Origin: Streptomyces naganishii JCM 4654
GTDB taxonomy: Bacteria; Actinomycetota; Actinomycetes; Streptomycetales; Streptomycetaceae
Length of the DNA: 64,000 bases
Direction: 5' to 3'
NCBI RefSeq assembly: GCF_014650575.1
Contig: NZ_BMVF01000010.1
Span: forward strand, 124,001-188,000
Positions 5,530-62,228 of the stretch are shown in pieces (the first letter of the stretch is position 1; every line of letters starts with the position of its first letter). A program made the position numbers and the translations under genes. Under the pieces are notes generated by a model. It saw only the letters and a list, made by a program, of their open reading frames with translations. It made no database searches and was not told where the DNA came from.

Positions 5530-9838
<4,309 letters not shown>

Positions 9839-9875
9839 CGGCAGTCCATTACCCTGGACGCAGAAGTACACCGCG

Positions 9876-10904
9876 ATGAACGCGAGCCCCGCGCTCCCGC
9901 ACCCCACTCCCCGAGCCAGCCCTGGACCGCCCGTGAGTACCCCCAGCACCTCCCGTGCCGCCGCCCCCTCCTCGTCGGCCCCGGCCGCCGCGGCACCGGG
10001 CCCCGCGCCCGCGCCGGCCCCCGGCGGTCAGGGCCGTTTCGGCTCCCTGGGGCCGGTGGGCCTGGTGCTGGCGGGCGGGCTCTCGGTGCAGTTCGGCGGC
10101 GCGCTGGCCGTGACGCTGATGCCGAGGACGGGCGCGCTGGGCGTGGTGACGCTGCGACTGCTGGTGGCGGCGATCGTGCTGCTGCTGGTCTGCCGGCCGC
10201 GGCTGCGCGGACACTCGCGCGCCGACTGGGGCACGGTCGTCGTCTTCGGCATCGCGATGGCCGCGATGAACGGCCTCTTCTACCAGTCCATCGCCCGCAT
10301 TCCGCTCGGCCCGGCGGTCACCCTGGAGGTGCTCGGCCCGCTGGTCCTGTCGGTCCTGGCCTCCCGCCGCGCCCTCAACCTCGTCTGGGCGGGGCTCGCC
10401 CTGGCGGGCGTCTTCCTGCTGAGCGGCGGCGGGTTCGGCAGCCTCAACGCCGCCGGTGTGGCGTTCGCGCTGGGCGCGGGCGCGATGTGGGCGGCGTACA
10501 TCGTCTTCAGCGCGCGCACCGGCCGGCGCTTCCCGCAGGCGGACGGGCTGGCGCTGGCGATGGCGGTGGGCGCGGTGCTGTTCATGCCGCTGGGCATCGC
10601 GGAGTCGGGCGCGAAGCTCGCCGATCCGGTGACGTTCGGGCTGGGCGCGGCGGTGGCGGTGCTGTCCTCCGTGCTGCCGTACACCCTCGAACTGCTCGCC
10701 CTGCGCCGCCTGCCCGCCTCCACCTTCGCCGTGATGATGAGCCTGGAGCCGGCCATCGCCGCCACCGCGGGCCTCCTCGTCCTCGGCCAGGCCCTCACCC
10801 CGATCCAGGCGGTCGCCATCGCCCTGGTCATCGCGGCCAGCATGGGCGCGGTGCGCACCCAGGTGGGGCGGGGGAAGCGGCCGTTGCCCCCGGTGGACGC
10901 CTGA
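9876..10904 (+). CDS. EamA/RhtA-type inner-membrane exporter
   Basis: 342 residues with about ten hydrophobic helices in two EamA (DMT) repeats. It resembles RhtA-like threonine/homoserine exporters (NGLFYQSIARIPLGPAVTLEVLGPL, then the mirrored LRRLPASTFAVMMSLEPAIAA). The first ~55 residues are Ala/Pro/Ser rich and not part of the fold; a GTG start at 9933 (VSTPSTSRAA) would remove part of this and is an alternative. It begins 37 bp after the preceding dehydrogenase, possibly in the same transcript. Confidence 0.85.
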   Translation: MNASPALPHPTPRASPGPPVSTPSTSRAAAPSSSAPAAAAPGPAPAPAPGGQGRFGSLGPVGLVLAGGLSVQFGGALAVTLMPRTGALGVVTLRLLVAAIVLLLVCRPRLRGHSRADWGTVVVFGIAMAAMNGLFYQSIARIPLGPAVTLEVLGPLVLSVLASRRALNLVWAGLALAGVFLLSGGGFGSLNAAGVAFALGAGAMWAAYIVFSARTGRRFPQADGLALAMAVGAVLFMPLGIAESGAKLADPVTFGLGAAVAVLSSVLPYTLELLALRRLPASTFAVMMSLEPAIAATAGLLVLGQALTPIQAVAIALVIAASMGAVRTQVGRGKRPLPPVDA

Positions 10905-13522: not shown

Positions 13523-15117
13523 CGGTCCTTGACTCCGCCCTGGACACCGGCTCGCCCGACTACCGGGCCAACCGCGAGGCCATGCTCGCCCGGCTCGCCG
13601 AACTGGACGCCGAGCACGCCAAAGCCCTCGCGGGCGGCGGCCCGAAGTACGTCGAACGGCACCGGCGGCGCGGCAAACTGCTCGCCCGCGAGCGCGTCGA
13701 GCTGCTGCTCGATGCGGACACGCCCTTCCTGGAGCTGTCGCCGCTGGCGGCCTGGGGCAGCGACTACGCGGTGGGCGCCTCGCTGGTCACCGGCATCGGC
13801 GTCGTCGAGGGCGTGGAGTGCCTGATCACGGCCAACGACCCCACCGTGCGCGGCGGGGCCAGCAATCCGTGGAGCCTGAAGAAGGCGCTGCGGGCCAACG
13901 ACATCGCGCTCGCCAACCGGCTGCCCTGCATCAGCCTGGTGGAGTCGGGCGGCGCCGATCTGCCGTCCCAGAAGGAGATCTTCATCCCCGGGGGCGCCAT
14001 CTTCCGCGATCTGACCCGGCTTTCGGCGGCCGGCATCCCGACCGTCGCCGTCGTCTTCGGCAACTCCACGGCCGGCGGCGCCTACGTCCCCGGCATGTCC
14101 GACCACGTGATCATGGTCAAGGAGCGCGCCAAGGTGTTCCTCGGCGGGCCCCCGCTGGTGAAGATGGCGACCGGTGAGGAGAGCGACGACGAGTCCCTGG
14201 GCGGCGCCGAGATGCACGCGCGCGTGTCCGGCCTCGCCGACTACTTCGCCGTGGACGAGCGGGACGCGCTGAGGCAGGCACGCCGGGTCGTCGCCCGTCT
14301 CAACCACCGCAAGGCCCATCCCGATCCCCCCTTCGCAGAGCCGCCCAAATACGACAACGAGGAGCTCCTGGGCATCGTTCCCGGCGATCTGAAGATCCCC
14401 TTCGATCCCCGCGAGGTGATCGCCCGGATCGTCGACGCCTCCGACTTCGACGAGTTCAAACCGCTGTACGGCACCAGCCTGACCACCGGCTGGGCCACAC
14501 TGCACGGCTATCCCGTGGGCGTCCTCGCCAACGCCCGGGGCGTGCTGTTCAGCGAGGAGTCGCAGAAGGCCGCCCAGTTCATCCAGCTCGCCAACCAGCG
14601 CGACATCCCGCTGCTGTTCCTGCACAACACCACCGGCTACATGGTCGGCCGCGAGTACGAGCAGGGCGGCATCATCAAGCACGGCGCCATGATGATCAAC
14701 GCCGTCAGCAACTCGCGCGTGCCGCACCTGTCGGTGCTCATGGGGGCGTCGTACGGCGCCGGGCACTACGGCATGTGCGGGCGGGCCTACGACCCGCGCT
14801 TCCTGTTCGCCTGGCCGAGCGCCAAGTCGGCCGTCATGGGGCCGCAGCAGCTCGCCGGCGTGCTGTCGATCGTGGCCCGCCAGTCGGCGGCGGCGAAGGG
14901 CCAGCCGTACGACGAGGAGGCGGACGCGGCGCTGCGCGCCATGGTGGAGCAGCAGATCGAGACCGAGTCGCTGCCGATGTTCCTGTCCGGGCGGCTCTAC
15001 GACGACGGCGTCATCGACCCGCGCGACACCCGCACCGTGCTCGGCCTGTGCCTGTCGGCCGTCCACACCGCCCCCTACGAGGGCGCCCGCGGCGGCTTCG
15101 GCGTCTTCCGGATGTGA
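13519..15117 (+). CDS. Acyl-CoA carboxylase, carboxyltransferase (beta) subunit
   Basis: 532 residues. Contains both crotonase-like halves of the carboxyltransferase: acyl-CoA side (GGASNPWSLKKALRAND, GNSTAGGAYVPGMSDH) and biotin side (NTTGYMVGREYEQGGIIKHG, GASYGAGHYGMCGRAYDPRF). It belongs to the methylcrotonyl/geranyl-CoA carboxylase branch rather than the housekeeping AccD/PccB branch. It starts with GTG overlapping the AtuA stop, and the biotinylated partner follows after 12 bp. Most likely carboxylates a beta-methyl-branched unsaturated acyl-CoA. Confidence 0.9.
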   Translation: MTVLDSALDTGSPDYRANREAMLARLAELDAEHAKALAGGGPKYVERHRRRGKLLARERVELLLDADTPFLELSPLAAWGSDYAVGASLVTGIGVVEGVECLITANDPTVRGGASNPWSLKKALRANDIALANRLPCISLVESGGADLPSQKEIFIPGGAIFRDLTRLSAAGIPTVAVVFGNSTAGGAYVPGMSDHVIMVKERAKVFLGGPPLVKMATGEESDDESLGGAEMHARVSGLADYFAVDERDALRQARRVVARLNHRKAHPDPPFAEPPKYDNEELLGIVPGDLKIPFDPREVIARIVDASDFDEFKPLYGTSLTTGWATLHGYPVGVLANARGVLFSEESQKAAQFIQLANQRDIPLLFLHNTTGYMVGREYEQGGIIKHGAMMINAVSNSRVPHLSVLMGASYGAGHYGMCGRAYDPRFLFAWPSAKSAVMGPQQLAGVLSIVARQSAAAKGQPYDEEADAALRAMVEQQIETESLPMFLSGRLYDDGVIDPRDTRTVLGLCLSAVHTAPYEGARGGFGVFRM

Positions 15118-55301: not shown

Positions 55302-55420
55302 CTACAGCCGCAGTCCGCGGTCCCGGCGGGGCGCCGCCTCGTCGCCGGGGGAGCCGCCCGCCCGGAAGGTGCGCCGGTAGGCGGTCGGGGTCACTCCCAG
55401 GGCCGCCTGGGCGCAGAGGA
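55302..55420 (-). pseudogene. 3' relic of an AraC/GlxA-type regulator
   Basis: On the minus strand, ...CAQAALGVTPTAYRRTFRAGG... followed by about 15 residues and a stop at 55302-55304 matches the last helix and tail of AraC/GlxA family regulators. The rest of the HTH and the sensor domain are absent. Confidence 0.5.
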
Positions 55421-55471
55421 ACAGCCGCTCCGGCGGCGGACGTGCACCGCGCGTGGTTCGTCGCCGCCGTC
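55412..55471 (+). pseudogene. 5' relic of an MFS transporter gene
   Basis: The plus-strand frame gives ADVHRAWFVAAV, the typical first-helix start of an MFS permease, and then runs into unrelated sequence. The matching interior of an MFS gene resumes at 60278, so this is probably the left part of the gene split by the element. Short, so tentative. Confidence 0.4.
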
Positions 55472-55533
55472 AGGCGGATTCGGCGGTCAGGCGCTCGCAC
55501 AGGGTGGCTCCCGCAGGTCAGCGCCACGATCTC

Positions 55534-56307
55534 TCACTGCGGTGTGGTCGAGTACCGCTCGATGCTCGCGCGACCCGTCGATCGGTCGAGTAGGCGCAGC
55601 TCCCACGGGCCCGTGTTCACATCGAAGTCCTTGCCGAACCCGACCCACTTGCCCGCCATGCGTCGGCCTGTCGGCTCGATGAGCAGCTGAATGGCACCGT
55701 GGTATCGGGCGCCCTGGTAGTACCCGTCGGCTGCCGTCTGCTCGGTCCACGTACCAGTGACGACGTTCCGGTCAATCGTGAGATCCAGAGACAACGGGCT
55801 GCCCGGGTTGGTCGACGCTCCGGGCAGGCTCTGAGCTGTCAGCCGGTTACCGTGCTGGACGATCACGACGTGGTGCTTGCAGTCGAACGTCTCGTCACGG
55901 CTGGACGAGTAGAACTCGTACCGGGACAGCCAGATGCCCGCGTACTCGCTCTGCGGCTGCGGCTCCGGGCTTGCGCCAGCGTCAGCCGTGCCGACTTCCC
56001 CAGCCTCCATGTCGTGACCTCCTGCCCCGTCCGAGTGGACGCGTGCCATCGGGATCGCGAATCCCAGCGACTCAGGCATGCGGCCGGTGAACCGCTTCAG
56101 TGCCCGCGCGTACAGGGGGCGGCATGTCCTGGTCTCCCCGGACTCCCAGCGTTGCACGAGTCGCTTGGAGGCGTCGTTCGGTTCCCCCAGCTCCTCGCCT
56201 GCGTCACGTAAGCCCCGGGCGAACTCGTCCTGGCTGAGATTCATCGACTTGCGTACGGAGGTCAGCACGTCGTTGGGAATTCGCTCACGCTCGGCCGAAG
56301 TCGTCAT
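55534..56307 (-). CDS. HTH (XRE) regulator with C-terminal beta-rich sensor-like domain
   Basis: 257 residues. The N-terminal HTH (RKSMNLSQDEFARGLRDAGEELGEPNDASKRLVQRWESGE) is of phage-repressor type. After a Pro/Glu linker (about 105-125) comes a strand-rich domain (YAGIWLSRYEFYSSSRDETFDCKHHVVIVQHGNRL, GTWTEQTAADGYYQGARYHGAIQLL, GKWVGFGKDF). I do not recognise this domain by name. It is divergent from the cargo operon, a usual place for the controlling repressor. Confidence 0.78.
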   Translation of the reverse strand: MTTSAERERIPNDVLTSVRKSMNLSQDEFARGLRDAGEELGEPNDASKRLVQRWESGETRTCRPLYARALKRFTGRMPESLGFAIPMARVHSDGAGGHDMEAGEVGTADAGASPEPQPQSEYAGIWLSRYEFYSSSRDETFDCKHHVVIVQHGNRLTAQSLPGASTNPGSPLSLDLTIDRNVVTGTWTEQTAADGYYQGARYHGAIQLLIEPTGRRMAGKWVGFGKDFDVNTGPWELRLLDRSTGRASIERYSTTPQ

Positions 56308-56369
56308 GATCCGAGGGTAGCCACGCCACGCTTCCAATGACACCGGTTTGACGCCTTCGGGGTGATGGC

Positions 56370-56441
56370 GACATGACGCCCGAGGGACGCCCTGAACGCC
56401 GCCGCAATGGTCGTGACCGGTCCGGAACATGGCGTCATGTC
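56370..56441. promoter_or_regulatory. 11-bp inverted repeat overlapping the start of the cargo operon
   Basis: GACATGACGCC (56370-56380) and GGCGTCATGTC (56431-56441) are exact reverse complements. The second arm contains the ATG (56437) of the 64-aa protein. TTTGACGCC at 56347-56355 repeats part of the first arm and includes a TTGACG -35-like hexamer. Two operators, or an RNA hairpin masking the start codon, would both fit. Confidence 0.5.
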
Positions 56442-56631
56442 CATCCGCATCAGCGCTTACACGGTGAGAGCCGACGGCACGCAGACCAAGCCACGAACTC
56501 TCTACGAGGGTGAGGGCGGAGAACCCCTCGCCACTGGCCAGATGCCGCCGTGCCAATGTTCTAAGTGCAGGGGTGGGCGACATGACCGGAGCACCACGGT
56601 CCCCCAATTACGTGGAGGCAAGCCAGCATGA
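56437..56631 (+). CDS. Small Cys-motif protein (64 aa)
   Basis: 64 residues from ATG 56437; an in-frame ATG at 56407 would add ten. N-terminal strand-like MSIRISAYTVRADG, then PPCQCSKCRGGRH, a CxCxxC cluster that could bind a metal. Its stop overlaps the next start as ATGA, so translation is coupled. I do not recognise the family; its function is unknown. Confidence 0.6.
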   Translation: MSIRISAYTVRADGTQTKPRTLYEGEGGEPLATGQMPPCQCSKCRGGRHDRSTTVPQLRGGKPA

Positions 56632-57128
56632 GCACGGCAGTAGTGATCCGCGACCCGAAGGCGTACGTCACTCCGGACGTGTGGGAGCGGGAGGTAGCCC
56701 TCCTCCTCCGCAACCCGGAGAACACGCGTGAACTGGCAGAGGCCAAGTTCGGACAGGCCATCGCCTACCTGGTCACCTGCGGCGAGAACGCGGACCTTCT
56801 CATGGGTCCGTCCAAGCCCGTGGACGAGGCATGGCACTCATTCATGCTCGACTCGGTCCCGTACCACCACTTCACCAGCCGGCACTTCGGCCGGTACATC
56901 CACCACGTGCCGGAACTCCCGGGGGCGGCGGCTGGTGTCCAGTGCGTCAGCGACGACAAGGCGACGCTGGACGGCCACGACCCCAAGGCCGGCGGCCCGC
57001 TCGTCCTGGAACAGACGATCAAGGCCATCAAGGCGGCCGGGTTCGAGATCGACCCCGACCTGTGGGGCATGGAGGACGCGGCCGACTGCAACCAGTGCCA
57101 CGCCGGGTGCCACGACTCGCCCAAGTAG
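56628..57128 (+). CDS. Glycine-rich-domain-protein-like element protein (166 aa)
   Basis: 166 residues. The helical core ELAEAKFGQAIAYLVTCGENADLLMGPSKPVDEAWHSFMLDS...YHHFTSRHFGRYIHHVP resembles the DUF1399/GRDP domain, in which the DxxWH and YHxF motifs recur. The C-terminal CNQCHAGCH adds a second Cys/His cluster. Coupled to the 64-aa protein. No enzymatic role is known for this domain in bacteria. Confidence 0.65.
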   Translation: MSTAVVIRDPKAYVTPDVWEREVALLLRNPENTRELAEAKFGQAIAYLVTCGENADLLMGPSKPVDEAWHSFMLDSVPYHHFTSRHFGRYIHHVPELPGAAAGVQCVSDDKATLDGHDPKAGGPLVLEQTIKAIKAAGFEIDPDLWGMEDAADCNQCHAGCHDSPK

Positions 57129-57203
57129 TTGCGGGCGGCAAATGAGTTGGGGCCTACCTTCGTACGTTGGGGGTGGGCCCCTCTTGCCGGAAAGGATCAC
57201 CGC

Positions 57204-57833
57204 ATGTCATTGGCTGAGTCCTGGGACAGGTACGCAGCCGGGAGCAAGCCACGCAGGACCGTGAACGCCAGAGGCGATGCGACCTGGCTGAACTGGACCC
57301 AGTACCCCGATCACGGGCCGGACGAGAGCGTTCTGGGTCCCGTGGCCGGACGCCGGGTGCTGGAACTCGGCTCGGGGAGCGGTAGTAACCTCGCGCACCT
57401 CGTGGCGCTTGGCGCGACAGGCCAAGGGGTGGACATCGCCCCCGCCCGCGAGACGGTCGCGCGGGAGCGCTGGGGCCATCTGCCGGGCCTTGAGTTCTGT
57501 ACGGCGGAGGCGACTGCGTTCCTGAACGAGACGGACGAGAGATTCGATGTCGTGCTCTCGATCTTTGGTGCCGTGTGGTTCGTCGATCCGGACACGTTGC
57601 TCCCGCTGATCCGCTCGCGCATGACGGCGGGCGGCATCCTGGCCTTCTCGCATTTGCCTCCAGGCAGTCAGGGGCCCAAGCCTGTCAAAGCCGGACTGCG
57701 GCACGACCGCACCCCGGATGAGTGGGGGCGCATCCTGACGGGGCACGGCTTCTCTGACGTGCGCGTGTCGCTGATCGATCCGCCAAAGGGTCGGGCTGTG
57801 GGCACGATGCTTGTCCGGGCTCTGGGGGCGTGA
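57204..57833 (+). CDS. Class I SAM-dependent methyltransferase
   Basis: 209 residues. SAM motif I RVLELGSGSGSNLAHLVALG, motif II GQGVDIAP, then VLSIFGAVWFVDPDTLLPLIRSRMTAGG. N-terminal MSLAESWDRYAAGS is seen in small-molecule methyltransferases of this type. AAAGGA before the ATG. Third gene of the element's plus-strand operon (75-bp gap). It could modify a product or target made by the two upstream genes (inference). Confidence 0.82.
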   Translation: MSLAESWDRYAAGSKPRRTVNARGDATWLNWTQYPDHGPDESVLGPVAGRRVLELGSGSGSNLAHLVALGATGQGVDIAPARETVARERWGHLPGLEFCTAEATAFLNETDERFDVVLSIFGAVWFVDPDTLLPLIRSRMTAGGILAFSHLPPGSQGPKPVKAGLRHDRTPDEWGRILTGHGFSDVRVSLIDPPKGRAVGTMLVRALGA

Positions 57834-57854
57834 TCGCGCGGCTGTGGGCCTGTC

Positions 57855-58269
57855 TCAGGCGCTCTCGTCAAGGTGGCGGTAGAGGGTGGCACGGGAGATC
57901 CCGAGAGCCTTGGCAATGGCGCTCACGCTGTCGCCCATCGCCTTCTGGGCACGGGCCACGGTGAGCACATCCTCATCGACCACGGGCCACGGTGAGCACA
58001 TCCTCATCGACCACGGTCGGGCGTCCGCCCGTACGCCCCTGCGCCTTGGCTGCGTCGAGTCCGGCGCGGGCCCGCTCCTTGATGAGGCTGCGCTCAGACT
58101 CCCCCATGGCTCCGACCACCTGAAGCATGGAACGACCATCCGCCGTACCGGGGTCGATGTCGGCCAGTGCACCCGTGAGCACCTGGAACCCGATGCCTCG
58201 CCCTCGAAGGGTGTCGACCATGGTCACAAGGTCGATGAGGGACCGGGCGAACCGGTCCGGCTTCCACAT
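57855..58269 (-). pseudogene. Serine resolvase/invertase remnant, frameshifted
   Basis: Frame 1 gives WKPDRFARSLIDLVTMVDTLRGRGIGFQ...LLQVVGAMGESERSLIKERARAGLDAAKAQGR, the resolvase core and E helix. After GGRPTVVDEDVLTVAR the frame shifts, because 31 bp (57953-57983) are duplicated at 57984-58014. The true C terminus ARAQKAMGDSVSAIAKALGISRATLYRHL is in the other frame. About 60 N-terminal residues with the catalytic Ser are also absent. Clearly inactive. Confidence 0.75.
57953..58014. repeat. 31-bp exact tandem duplication inside the resolvase remnant
   Basis: Two back-to-back identical copies beginning GGGCCACGGTGAGCACATCC. The length is not a multiple of three, so it alone breaks the reading frame. 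Confidence 0.85.
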
Positions 58270-58370
58270 CCGGGAGGGCAGACAGAGAAGTGAGGGAGCG
58301 AACCTTTCCGCAGGTCATCGTCCATGTCACTACACGTCCGGTGTGTGCTGGCCGCACCTGCGGTATGTGC

Positions 58371-58799
58371 TCACCGGCCCTGATGGAGTCGGCACGGTAC
58401 GGGCGCACCCTTCCCCTTCTGGAAGAGGTGAGGGGGCAGGACAAGGCAAGCCGCCCCGGACCGGGGCGATACGAGATCCCACTTCTTGGCGCGACTGATC
58501 GCGTTGTTCGTGCTCTGGTCGGACAGAGGCCTGCCGTGCTTGCCGAGCAGGACAGCCAGCTTCCCAGGGTCGAACGCTGCGTGTCCCTGCCGGTCGGCCC
58601 ATCCAAGGGCGGCGAAGAGAACGCGGTGGGCGAGCGGGTGCCAGGGCTCCTGTGCCTTGCGCTGGAACTCGCGTTGGAAGACCCTGCCCCACGGGCGGTC
58701 ATGACCGAAGCTGATGACCACTGGTTCGAGGCTCCTTCCTGTGAGGCGCACACGGGTGCGCCAGCGACCCCCACCGGACGGCGGGACATGTGTCTCCAT
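58371..58799 (-). CDS. Element-encoded winged-helix-like protein
   Basis: 142 residues. The central region HPLAHRVLFAALGWADRQGHAAFDPGKLAVLLGK...TNNAISRAKKWDLVS has the helix-turn-helix-strand spacing of a winged helix, as found in small phage and plasmid DNA-binding proteins. Begins 15 bp after the integrase stop on the same strand. No family name can be given. Confidence 0.55.
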   Translation of the reverse strand: METHVPPSGGGRWRTRVRLTGRSLEPVVISFGHDRPWGRVFQREFQRKAQEPWHPLAHRVLFAALGWADRQGHAAFDPGKLAVLLGKHGRPLSDQSTNNAISRAKKWDLVSPRSGAACLVLPPHLFQKGKGAPVPCRLHQGR

Positions 58800-58814
58800 G
58801 TCGAGCGGGTCCGG

Positions 58815-60224
58815 TTACGCGTCGGGTTCGTCGTCGGAGGTGTGGTTCCACTCCACGGTCATGTAGTCGTCCGCGGTCATCTTCGCCGCCTTCTTGAAGC
58901 CGTTGGGGTGCATCGTGATCGTGGTGACGAACTTGACCCACGCCCGGCGGACGGGGAGCGGAGTGATCGGCCAGTCCTGAATCAGGTCAGTAATGCCCGA
59001 GACGGGGTCGATCGGGGGCAGGCCAGTGACACCGGACAGCTTCTCGTCGATTTCGTCGAGCCTGGCCCGGATCGCCTCGGTACCGGCCGTCATCTGCGAC
59101 AGGGTGATGGCTCCGGAGGCGTAGGACACAGCCAACCCGTCGAGCCGTTCCCGCAGGGTCTGCGCCTCCTGGTGGAGGTGGGCCGAGTCGTCTCCCTCCT
59201 CCTGCCGAGCGGAGAGAACCCAGGGCAGGAAGCCGGGGAAGACGATTCGCGCGAGGACGGCGTTACCGGCTCGCTTGTCGGCCAGCTCACGGGGTACGCG
59301 TACGTGCTTCTGTCCGCAGCGGTAGACCGGAGTCCCTCGGTACATGCCGCCTCGCACGGTCTCCCCGCAGCGCTCACACGTAGCCAGTCCGGCGAGCAGG
59401 GTCTGAGGGGCTGAGCCGGTACGTGCACCACCCGTGAAGCGCTTGGGGTTTGTCAGTGCCGACACGAGGGCGTAGTGAGTCGCCTCGTCCAGGATCGCGG
59501 GCCACTGTCCCTCGCCCACCACTTCGCCGTGGTAGGTGGCCTGAGCGATGTACCGAGGGGAGATGAGCACCTTCTTCACTCCGCCTACGCCCCACCCCTT
59601 CGCGTCGCCCTTCGCCGTGCCGGACGACGAGCGGGGAGCGAGCAGACCGAGGTCGGTCCAGAAGCGAGCGACAGCCGCCAGGGTCTCGCCCTGAAGAACC
59701 ATCTCGGCACCCTTGCGGATCGCTTCCGCCTCAGCTTCGACCATGGTCACGTAGTCGTCGGCGTATCCGAACGGCCGCAAGCCTGTCTTGTGCGGCGTGC
59801 CGTTCTTGGCCGCCTGAAGGTTCGATGCCTTCTGCCGTAGTGCCTTCTGCTCACCCTCGTACTCCGCCCACGCAGTGACCGTCTTGGCCGTAGCTCGACC
59901 AGCCGGAGTCGAGAGGTCCAGGTGTCCGGCGTGGATGGCGTGGACGTTGACCCCGAGTGCGATCACTCGCAACAGGTCTTCCGTCTTGCGTACGAGTCGA
60001 TCAGTGTGCCAGCAGAGAATCGCGTCCGGCTTGGAGGCCAACAGTCGCTCGAACCCCGGGCGGACCTTGCCCGAGGTGGCGCTGATGTCGTTGTCCGGGA
60101 TCACCTCGCGTACGGCCCAGCCACGGGCTTCGGCGTAGGCCCGGCACTCGGCCTCCTGCCGCTGAACGCCCAACTCGTCGCCGTGCTGATCGAGGCTGAG
60201 TCGTACGTAGATGGTGACGCCCAC
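58815..60224 (-). CDS. Large serine integrase, phage R4 Sre type
   Basis: 469 residues from GTG 60224 (GGGGGG site upstream). Resolvase domain (about 1-145) with catalytic Ser in YVRLSLDQ, DNDISATSGKVRPGFERLL, WHTDRLVRKTEDL; recombinase domain (about 150-260: RPFGYADDYVTMVEAEAEAIRKGA); zinc ribbon LATCERCGETVRGGMYRGTPVYRC; C-terminal coiled segment (EAQTLRERLDGLAVSYASGAI). From memory it is close to R4 Sre, which has the same length. It catalyses attP x attB recombination of the element. All key parts look intact. Confidence 0.92.
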   Translation of the reverse strand: MGVTIYVRLSLDQHGDELGVQRQEAECRAYAEARGWAVREVIPDNDISATSGKVRPGFERLLASKPDAILCWHTDRLVRKTEDLLRVIALGVNVHAIHAGHLDLSTPAGRATAKTVTAWAEYEGEQKALRQKASNLQAAKNGTPHKTGLRPFGYADDYVTMVEAEAEAIRKGAEMVLQGETLAAVARFWTDLGLLAPRSSSGTAKGDAKGWGVGGVKKVLISPRYIAQATYHGEVVGEGQWPAILDEATHYALVSALTNPKRFTGGARTGSAPQTLLAGLATCERCGETVRGGMYRGTPVYRCGQKHVRVPRELADKRAGNAVLARIVFPGFLPWVLSARQEEGDDSAHLHQEAQTLRERLDGLAVSYASGAITLSQMTAGTEAIRARLDEIDEKLSGVTGLPPIDPVSGITDLIQDWPITPLPVRRAWVKFVTTITMHPNGFKKAAKMTADDYMTVEWNHTSDDEPDA

Positions 60225-60277
60225 CTGTCGTGCCCCCCCTTGTTCCTGCTCACCGCCTTTGTGCCCCAATACTTTAC

Positions 60278-60645
60278 CACGAGTTCGGCTGGTCGCGCGG
60301 CACAATCGGCGCGGCGGTCTCGCTCAACCTCGCCCTGTACGGGCTCACCGCGCCCTTCGCCGCCGCGCTGATGGACCGCTTCGGCATCCGCCGGGTCGTC
60401 GCCGCCGCGCTGACCGTGATCGCCGTCGGCGCGGGCCTGACCGTGTGGATGACCGCGCCCTGGCAGCTGTGGCTGTGCTGGGGCCTGCTGGTCGGCCTCG
60501 GCTCCGGCTCCATGGCGCTGGCCTTCGCGGCCACCGTCACCAACCGCTGGTTCACGCAGCGGCGCGGGGTGGTCAGCGGCATCCTCACCTCCGCCTTCGC
60601 CTCCGGGCAGCTGATCTTCCTGCCGGTGCTGTCCTGGACCGTCCG
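60278..60645 (+). pseudogene. MFS transporter fragment (interior)
   Basis: Frame HEFGWSRGTIGAAVSLNLALYGL...MDRFGIRRVV...RWFTQRRGVVSGILTSAFASGQLIFLPVLSW covers helices 2-5 of an MFS permease. The first helix is missing (probably at 55442-55471) and the frame meets unrelated sequence after LSWTV. Both ends are lost, so this cannot be functional. Confidence 0.8.
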
Positions 60646-60841
60646 GGCCCGTCCAGCAGTCGGCCCGGATGCGCTTCGGTATACGACAGGGCTGCCGCCT
60701 GGGATGCGGTCGTGTCGTCGCTCGACCCAGGTAGTGACCGTGGGGAACATGAGTGGCGCTGACGTTGACGAACAGGAACAGCGGTCGTCGCCCGGCGTGA
60801 TCGTCGGCCACCGCAAGGGCCTGATCGACCTGGTGGCGGTT
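60646..60841 (-). pseudogene. Sulfatase-like (STM4013-family) gene fragment with frameshift
   Basis: Minus frame 1: VDQALAVADDHAGRRPLFLFVNVSATHVPHGHYLG. A second frame then continues ASQAAALSYTEAHPGRLLDG. Together they match the middle of STM4013/SEN3800-type hydrolases as I recall them. The reading frame changes between the halves, and both termini are gone. Confidence 0.6.
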
Positions 60842-60846
60842 CGCAG

Positions 60847-61047
60847 TTGTCGGCCGGCAGCGTGGAAGAGGCATGTGCCACCTGGTCCAGCGCACTCGAT
60901 GCGATGGACGAAGGCATTTGCTCCGGACGCGCCCGGCAGCGGGTCGTCGAGATGCGTCAGCTCCTGTCGCCGTACCGTCGGCGGGGCATCCCGGTCGCCG
61001 TCGAGTTGGCGTCAAGGGCCACCGCCTATTTGTGCGCCGTAGATTGA
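60847..61047 (+). pseudogene. C-terminal relic of a TPR-type regulator
   Basis: SVEEACATWSSALDAMDEGICSGRARQRVVEMRQLLSPYRRRG...AVELASRATAYL is the last TPR and tail typical of Streptomyces XRE-TPR regulators; nothing upstream continues it. It could be read as a 66-aa protein, but no ribosome site is seen. Confidence 0.55.
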
Positions 61048-61079
61048 TCGCGACACGTCGAAGGACGAAGGGGGACTCA

Positions 61080-61553
61080 ATGGTGCTGGAGATCGAGCCC
61101 ATCGGCATCGTGGTCGGTGGGCGCGAGGAAGTGGCCGACGATCACTGGGGCGGCGTCGAATCCGTCATCCGCCTGGATCAGAGGTTTCCGCTCGACGTGG
61201 TGAAGGGCCTCGCGGACTTCTCCCACCTGGTCGTCACCTGGCACTTCAGCAGGGCGACGCCGGCTGACGTCGCCCTGCACGCGCGCAGTCCGCGGAACGA
61301 CCCCCGCTGGAAGCCCTCCGGCACCTTCGCGCACCGCAACCACCGGCGGCCGAACCAACTCGCCACCAGCTTCCCGCGTTTGCTCGAGGTCGACGGCCTG
61401 GATCTGCACGTGACCGACTTGGACGCGGTCGACGGAACCCCGGTCTACGACCTGGCGCCGTACTTCGCGGAGATGGGTCCGCGTGGCGAGATCCGCGAGC
61501 CCGAGTGGCCCGGCGAGATGCTCAAGGAGTACTGGGCCGAGAAGAAGGGCTGA
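61080..61553 (+). CDS. TrmO-type tRNA t6A37 N6-methyltransferase-like protein
   Basis: 157 residues. TrmO/YaeB beta-barrel SAM fold: IEPIGIVVGGREEV, FSHLVVTWHFSRATP, HRRPNQLATSFPRLLEVDGLDLHVTDLDAVDGTPVYDLAPYF. TrmO methylates the threonylcarbamoyl group at A37 of tRNA-Thr; short stand-alone members occur in actinobacteria. AAGGGGG before the ATG. It sits next to degraded DNA but is itself intact. Confidence 0.85.
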   Translation: MVLEIEPIGIVVGGREEVADDHWGGVESVIRLDQRFPLDVVKGLADFSHLVVTWHFSRATPADVALHARSPRNDPRWKPSGTFAHRNHRRPNQLATSFPRLLEVDGLDLHVTDLDAVDGTPVYDLAPYFAEMGPRGEIREPEWPGEMLKEYWAEKKG

Positions 61554-61610
61554 CCCGGCAGGAGCGCGGTTCCGTACTCGTGCTCCCGTCGATCAAGAGC
61601 CCGCCTGCGA

Positions 61611-62228
61611 TCAGACGAAGCGGCCCCGGTGGAACAGCAGAGGCGGTTCGGTGTCGGCGTCTGTGCCCAGGGCGTTCACCCTGCCCACCACGATCAGGTG
61701 GTCGCCGCCGGTGTGGACGGCGTGGATCGCGCAGTCGATCCACGCCAGTGCGCCCGACAGGCGGGGGGAGCCGGAGACCGGGGACGCGTCGTGCGCGACG
61801 CCCGCGAACTTGTCCGCGCCGCTCACCGCGAAGGCGCGGCACAGGGCGTCCTGCCCGGCGCCGAGGACGTTGACGCAGAAGACGCCGGCGCGGGCGATGC
61901 GCGGCCACGTCGACGACGTACGGCCGACCATGAAGGCGACCAGGGGCGGGTCCAGGGAGAGGGATGCGAAGGACTGGCAGGCGAAGCCGGCGGGGGAGGG
62001 CTCGCCGGGGGCCGCCGGGGCCGTCACCACGGTCACGCCGGTCGCGAACTGCCCGAGCACGCGCCGGAACTCGCCCTGGTCGACCGGCGCCCGCTCGTCC
62101 TCGCGCACGCAGCGCAGCTCCGGGCGGGGCAGCGGGTCCACGGGCCGCTCGGCGCCCGCGCCCGTCCTCAGCCTGAGATAGCGGACGGCGGCCTCGGCCA
62201 TTCCTGCTTGTCCCATCACGTCCACCAT
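61611..62228 (-). CDS. Flavin reductase domain protein (HpaC/HsaB type)
   Basis: 205 residues. Flavin-reductase split barrel: EFRRVLGQFATGVTVVTA, GFACQSFASLSLDPPLVAFMVGRTSSTWPRI, VFCVNVLGAGQ, and GDHLIVVGRVNAL. Supplies reduced flavin to a two-component monooxygenase. The ~45-residue N-terminal extension is basic and not part of the domain. ATG 62228 has no ribosome site and lies five bases from operator copy 4, so transcription may start at or near the ATG; a start at 62213 (MGQAG) is possible. Confidence 0.85.
   Translation of the reverse strand: MVDVMGQAGMAEAAVRYLRLRTGAGAERPVDPLPRPELRCVREDERAPVDQGEFRRVLGQFATGVTVVTAPAAPGEPSPAGFACQSFASLSLDPPLVAFMVGRTSSTWPRIARAGVFCVNVLGAGQDALCRAFAVSGADKFAGVAHDASPVSGSPRLSGALAWIDCAIHAVHTGGDHLIVVGRVNALGTDADTEPPLLFHRGRFV

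Follow-up and report, generated by a model that had tools for sequence, protein, structure and literature searches.

A small R4-type integrative element, very probably stranded by loss of attL, in an MFS gene of Streptomyces naganishii

In a 64,000-nt stretch of DNA from Streptomyces naganishii JCM 4654 (in the following called the window), two pieces of an MFS gene are separated by DNA encoding a large serine integrase, and MFS codons are missing at the point of separation. An earlier note read this locus as an R4-type integrase element inserted in the MFS gene, either with a subsequent deletion or at a target that is not a simple attB. We asked which of these applies, and what kind of element is concerned. 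From the comparison with related loci, the locus very probably holds what is left of a small integrative element, which entered an MFS attB by R4-type insertion and was stranded when a later deletion removed attL.

The components named in the earlier note, an intact integrase, an HTH protein, cargo genes and a decayed resolvase between two MFS pieces, are all present (Table 1). The integrase gene reads intact over its 469 codons. A Pfam search detected a Resolvase domain (PF00239, 2.1e-23) and a Recombinase domain (PF07508, 3.4e-7). The best matches among annotated phages are R4-family integrases at 57–59% identity, including R4 Sre (57% identity, 98% coverage) and that of Pablito (59%). With both domains, a length of about 470 aa and full-length homology to R4 Sre, the protein belongs to the R4/Sre type. 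Its dN/dS against close relatives is 0.10–0.19, and no second copy was found in the genome.

Among bacterial genomes, we identified eight loci with integrase relatives at 85–93% identity, all hosts being Streptomyces. A survey of 393 genomes of the same genus yielded 8 other integrases at an E-value of 1e-150 or better, six at 87–94% (adding genome G007), one at 66% (G064) and one at 58% (G099). This gives nine close relatives at 85–93% identity. In all nine, the integrase is followed immediately on its right by the body of the same MFS gene, interrupted at the same point as in the window. The most divergent integrases, those of G099 and G064 (58–66%), are not located at this MFS gene. In G099 (locus L041, near position 14417), a CCCCCAAGCTGAACCACTGC-like arm lies directly upstream of the integrase next to another flanking gene, a context that suggests another R4-type attB. 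Since the target is the MFS gene in all nine close relatives and not the fatty-acyl-CoA synthase gene within which the R4 attB lies (PMC6549336), the integrase is a relative of the R4 integrase with another site, not the R4 integrase itself.

Five loci (L035, L036, L037, L040 and L042) carry complete elements with both attL and attR, completeness being defined by the additional presence of the N-terminal part of the MFS gene. Their left junction resembles GACCCGCTGCACCAGGAGTTC joined to GCTTGGTGATGCTTTGGGGAA, and their right junction GTGCCCCAAAGTTTTACCACGAG joined to TTC(GG)CTGGTCGCGC. When the element halves are joined, an attP results with two 20-nt arms around TT in imperfect inverted symmetry (13–16/20), positioned directly upstream of int. 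The joined host halves give an unbroken MFS stretch, the attB, with the crossover at approximately codons 59–65 of the MFS gene (counted on L040 and L054). In eight further relatives (L014, L015, L016, L018–L022), the MFS sequence is uninterrupted at this point; a relative with unrelated sequence here, which the earlier note had named as the refuting case, did not occur. Together, the five complete elements and the eight uninterrupted sites argue for a simple attB inside the MFS gene.

The annotated R4 attP (D38173.1; core 254–265, int from 292) reads CCCCAAAGCGATACCACTTG-AA-GCAGTGGTACTGCTTGTGGG. The rebuilt element attPs are identical to it at 25–29 of 42 positions, a level that only six of 378,994 background positions reached (25/42, with a maximum of 26). 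This likeness above background points to an R4-type attachment system with a different core and target. The R4-like arms next to int were recognised through the five complete relatives, and the window keeps the attR half only. Zero tRNA genes occur in the window, leaving a tRNA target unsupported.

On the left side of the element, attL is gone from the window. Window positions 55441–55472 align with L040 1346–1377, and the alignment continues from window position 55473 with L040 1520. The 142 bp missing in between correspond to 74 bp of the MFS gene (about 25 codons), the core TT and 66 bp at the left end of the element, as measured on L040, the closest complete relative but from another strain, so that the size of the loss in the window's own ancestor is an estimate. 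Measured to the crossover, the gap at the element is thus smaller than the approximately 35 codons of the earlier note, and the left MFS piece, regarded there as N-terminal codons, belongs further inside the gene, the start of which is deleted. Taken by itself, the gap in the window would also fit a loss of MFS codons during integration, at a non-simple attB whose DNA disappears upon insertion. This is highly improbable, because both junctions are present in the five complete elements and the MFS codons are conserved up to the crossover. The complete relatives keep the codons on both sides and the window lacks the 142 bp across attL, which argues for insertion followed by deletion of attL; of the two options in the earlier note, the first is supported and the second contradicted.

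We also considered that attL or the missing MFS parts had moved elsewhere in the genome and rejected this, as none were found: the attL arm did not occur at another place when up to two mismatches were allowed, and the whole MFS protein gave no other match at an E-value of 1e-15. Paralogues of the AraC gene are present only at 63% identity or less. The genome is a 7.8-Mb draft in 75 contigs, so that the deletion junctions could formally reflect faulty assembly.

Table 1 Features of the disrupted MFS locus and associated motifs in the window.
Feature	Position	Strand	Remarks
CTGACG-N3-CGTCAG palindromes	45750, 45840, 62234 (exact); 28791, 51493 (one mismatch)		
AraC-type regulator gene, C-terminal remnant, divergent	55343–55410	−	77–91% DNA identity over 35–81 bp to AraC genes of relatives
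Left MFS fragment, approximately codons 24–39 of relatives	55441–55472	+	85–97% DNA identity to MFS gene of eight relatives
Junction of 142-bp deletion (attL removed)	55472–55473		L040 1378–1519 missing between these bases, no filler
Remaining element DNA	55473–60283		55473–58268 at 93% and 58800–60644 at 91% to the complete element of S. kebangsaanensis (L029/L040)
HTH protein, 257 aa, candidate regulator, predicted beta-strand-rich C-terminal part	55534–56307	−	Weak phrog_10886 transcriptional-regulator and NsdA-family N-terminal matches
64-aa ORF with CxCxxC motif	56437–56631	+	ATGA overlap with next gene; 92% identical in L040; dN/dS 0.12
166-aa protein, unknown family, invariant C-terminal CNQCHAGCHDSP	56628–57128	+	dN/dS 0.19–0.26; 78–96% identity, eight aligned loci
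Class I SAM-dependent methyltransferase, 209 aa	57204–57833	+	PF13649 4.8e-9, PF08241 5.2e-9; dN/dS 0.20–0.25
Small resolvase/invertase, decayed	57855–58270	−	N-terminus missing, frameshifted; PF00239 matched only from profile position 69
31-bp tandem duplication inside resolvase	57950–58016		Start ambiguous, 57950–57955
Small conserved ORF, unknown family	58371–58799	−	116–142 aa by start choice; homologues in L027, L035, L036 and L039 elements
R4/Sre-type large serine integrase	58815–60224	−	469 aa, GTG start at 60224; PF00239, PF07508
attR	60264–60305		Element arm CCCCAATACTTTACCACGAG, TT crossover 60284–60285, MFS arm CGGCTGGTCGCGCGGCACAA; aligns with attR of nine relatives
Interior MFS fragment	60284–60643	+	83–89% DNA identity to MFS gene of relatives; PF07690
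Unrelated DNA in place of MFS 3′ half, including TrmO-like gene (61080–61553)	60644–61610		No alignment to relatives; flank homology resumes near 61611

The surroundings of the element are damaged as well. Deletion also took the 5′ part of the AraC gene, the first codons of the MFS gene and the DNA between the two genes, L040 248–1345 being reduced to 31 bp. In relatives, the AraC gene lies approximately 1.1 kb from the MFS gene. MFS homology stops at 60643, hence the 3′ end of the gene is broken too. The DNA that follows is a patchwork of unassigned sequence, a short ORF (60847–61047) without a family match and the TrmO-like gene. The palindrome CTGACG-N3-CGTCAG is found in the window three times exactly and five times with up to one mismatch (0.44 expected), which exceeds chance, and several related loci contain exact copies as well. 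The earlier note had the element separating members of this regulon. However, relatives already hold the AraC and MFS genes between the motif genes, and therefore the element did not newly split it.

These observations suggest the following course of events. The R4/Sre-type integrase would have recombined the attP directly upstream of int with the single attB in the MFS gene, the crossover falling, from the junction comparison, at TT within a Phe codon. The later 142-bp deletion would have taken attL along with the 25 or so codons of the MFS gene and the left end of the element. The AraC/MFS 5′ region and the 3′ half of the MFS gene would have been lost in deletions of their own, with decay of the resolvase as a further change. 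With attL lost, the element probably can no longer leave: its own integrase, though reading intact, should no longer excise it from attR alone. Excision through a cryptic secondary site is possible. The remaining cargo cassette would comprise a divergent HTH protein, its probable regulator, along with the 64-aa ORF, the 166-aa protein and the methyltransferase.

The element proper begins at 55473 and ends with the attR crossover at 60284. Its G+C content is 64–69%, versus 72–77% in most of the flanks, and it looks mosaic, with the left part nearest to L040 and the segment 58274–58715 nearest to L023 and L028 (76–77%). The resolvase frameshift was caused by the 31-bp tandem duplication; intact 194-aa copies exist in L040 and L057. 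The small ORF between resolvase and integrase had no Pfam match.

Not three genes, as described earlier, but four make up the cargo, since a conserved 64-aa ORF overlaps the following gene; the order is HTH protein, 64-aa ORF, 166-aa protein and methyltransferase. All four have dN/dS values of 0.11–0.26 where compared. The HTH protein is conserved in 11 loci (dN/dS 0.11–0.17), and its structure model has a helical N-terminus at low overall confidence (mean pLDDT 46). Family searches returned nothing for the 64-aa and 166-aa proteins, and the predicted structure of the latter is of low confidence (mean pLDDT 44). The methyltransferase matches the PADLOC mad2 profile of MADS partially (3.8e-16, profile positions 287–427 of 492); with no match among its neighbours and no other MADS protein nearby, the cargo was not called a defence system. 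The region 56310–56437, which separates the cargo operon from the divergent HTH gene, contains TGACACC/TGACGCC-like repeats as candidate operators; they are also seen in L055. Tentatively, and at rather low probability, the cargo could be a small operon under the divergent HTH protein, its methyltransferase having a small molecule or a Cys-rich partner protein as substrate.

The cassette also occurs at other loci without this integrase. The order of the HTH, 166-aa and methyltransferase genes is kept in L051–L058, some of them truncated. The 64-aa ORF lies in the same place in L051–L054, L056 and L057 and was not detected in L055 and L058. Five of these loci (L051, L053, L055, L056 and L058) carry the cassette and show no trace of the MFS site. 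The cassette thus persists as a conserved accessory unit after its carrier is gone. In L051 and L053, a candidate tyrosine recombinase is encoded approximately 5–8 kb downstream.

Further loci represent other fates of the insertion. In L024, attL was lost by a different, larger deletion, reaching from inside the AraC gene to inside the attL arm; this loss is independent of that in the window. L052 (G391) and L057 (G295) decayed in the opposite direction: attL was kept, and in the 19 kb covered at each locus we found no integrase, attR or MFS body. Integrase and att arms are absent from the cassette of L054 (G119), at approximately 7509–10142 in reverse-complement orientation. This cassette has the AraC gene on one side and an MFS gene that is intact on the other, and is bracketed by a 110-bp direct repeat (108/110) of AraC–MFS intergenic DNA. 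Here, recombination with an empty copy may have restored the MFS gene while the cargo stayed. One locus thus presents a series of states, namely empty, complete, stranded by loss of attL, stranded by loss of int and attR, and with cargo beside an intact target, making it a clear example of mobile cargo becoming a fixed part of the chromosome.

The complete elements measure 12,043 bp (L035, genome G007), 9,831 bp (L036, Streptomyces sp. NBC_01549, also L028), 9,801 bp (L037, S. griseoaurantiacus JCM 4763, also L026), 7,008 bp (L040, S. kebangsaanensis) and 4,048 bp (L042, Streptomyces sp. WAC 04229, also L030). They share the integrase family (87–93%) and the attB with the window, and L040 also the four-gene cargo, but unlike the window they kept attL. 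The cargo differs in L036, L037 and L035, and the genes for the 166-aa protein and the methyltransferase are missing from L042. An alternative cargo at the same site is seen in L036 (8749–11825) and L027 (1602–4678, reverse-complement), where a conserved 45-aa ORF precedes genes of JmjC, aldo/keto-reductase-like and weakly APH-like type.

Family searches found neither conjugation nor virion structural genes among 42 proteins of four complete elements, and just one weak match to a terminase small subunit (5.7e-7) without a large subunit. The same 42 proteins contained no Tra (FtsK-like) or Rep Pfam family at an E-value of 1e-4, as an AICE would have, and the virion structural, packaging and lysis genes of an R4-like prophage were not recognised. 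That the window holds a decayed ordinary R4-like prophage which lost its virion genes is improbable: integrase and attP are clearly of the R4 type, but all five complete elements, with their different cargo, keep both ends within at most 12 kb, we saw no full-length prophage carrying an integrase this close, and the integrases of the nearest viral contigs and phages are only 57–60% identical. Slightly less unlikely are complete members that act as phage satellites, which excise, replicate and are packaged by a helper, the window then holding a dead one. A size of 4–12 kb, one fixed site, an integrase, variable cargo and the lack of recognised virion structural genes would fit, as would the O-like replication protein of L040 and an excisionase-like protein in one of the other complete elements, among which DNA-invertase, HNH and JmjC genes also occur. 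Against this, cargo and regulators vary from subtype to subtype, and apart from int we identified no conserved core for packaging, interference or replication. The complete relatives are best called small integrative elements, and the window very probably holds the stranded remnant of one. It would be speculative to see in them an undescribed family of minimal (4–12 kb) Streptomyces satellites or cargo islets, which share the R4-type integrase and the MFS attB, swap nearly all else and are repeatedly fixed by losing one att site, with the cassette retained even after the target gene has become whole again.

The element is of an ordinary kind, with an instructive fate. Among those Streptomyces integration systems that PMC12924846 lists by name, we found none with this attB, though the serine-recombinase tables of PMC10083194 may contain it. 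The integrase with its well-defined MFS attB could therefore serve as an orthogonal integration tool.

Of the known systems, R4 itself resembles the present system in its 469-aa integrase and in an attP that immediately precedes int and has CCCCAAAG-type arms on both sides of a central dinucleotide. It differs in its attB gene, in its core (AA versus TT) and in being a 51-kb phage rather than a 4–12 kb element. R4-like cluster integrases differ in attB (PMC5311408). One phage of this cluster, phiJoe (PMC5311408), has another attB, is functional and has a known directionality factor, whereas none was identified here, but it resembles the present system in its serine integrase, in the position of attP just in front of int and in the imperfect inverted repeat that contains a central dinucleotide. 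The PICMI satellites of Vibrionaceae (PMC10803314) have unrelated hosts and an unrelated site; no common excision/replication core was found in our elements. What the two share is a very small size, one fixed site, few genes and the lack of capsid-remodelling genes.
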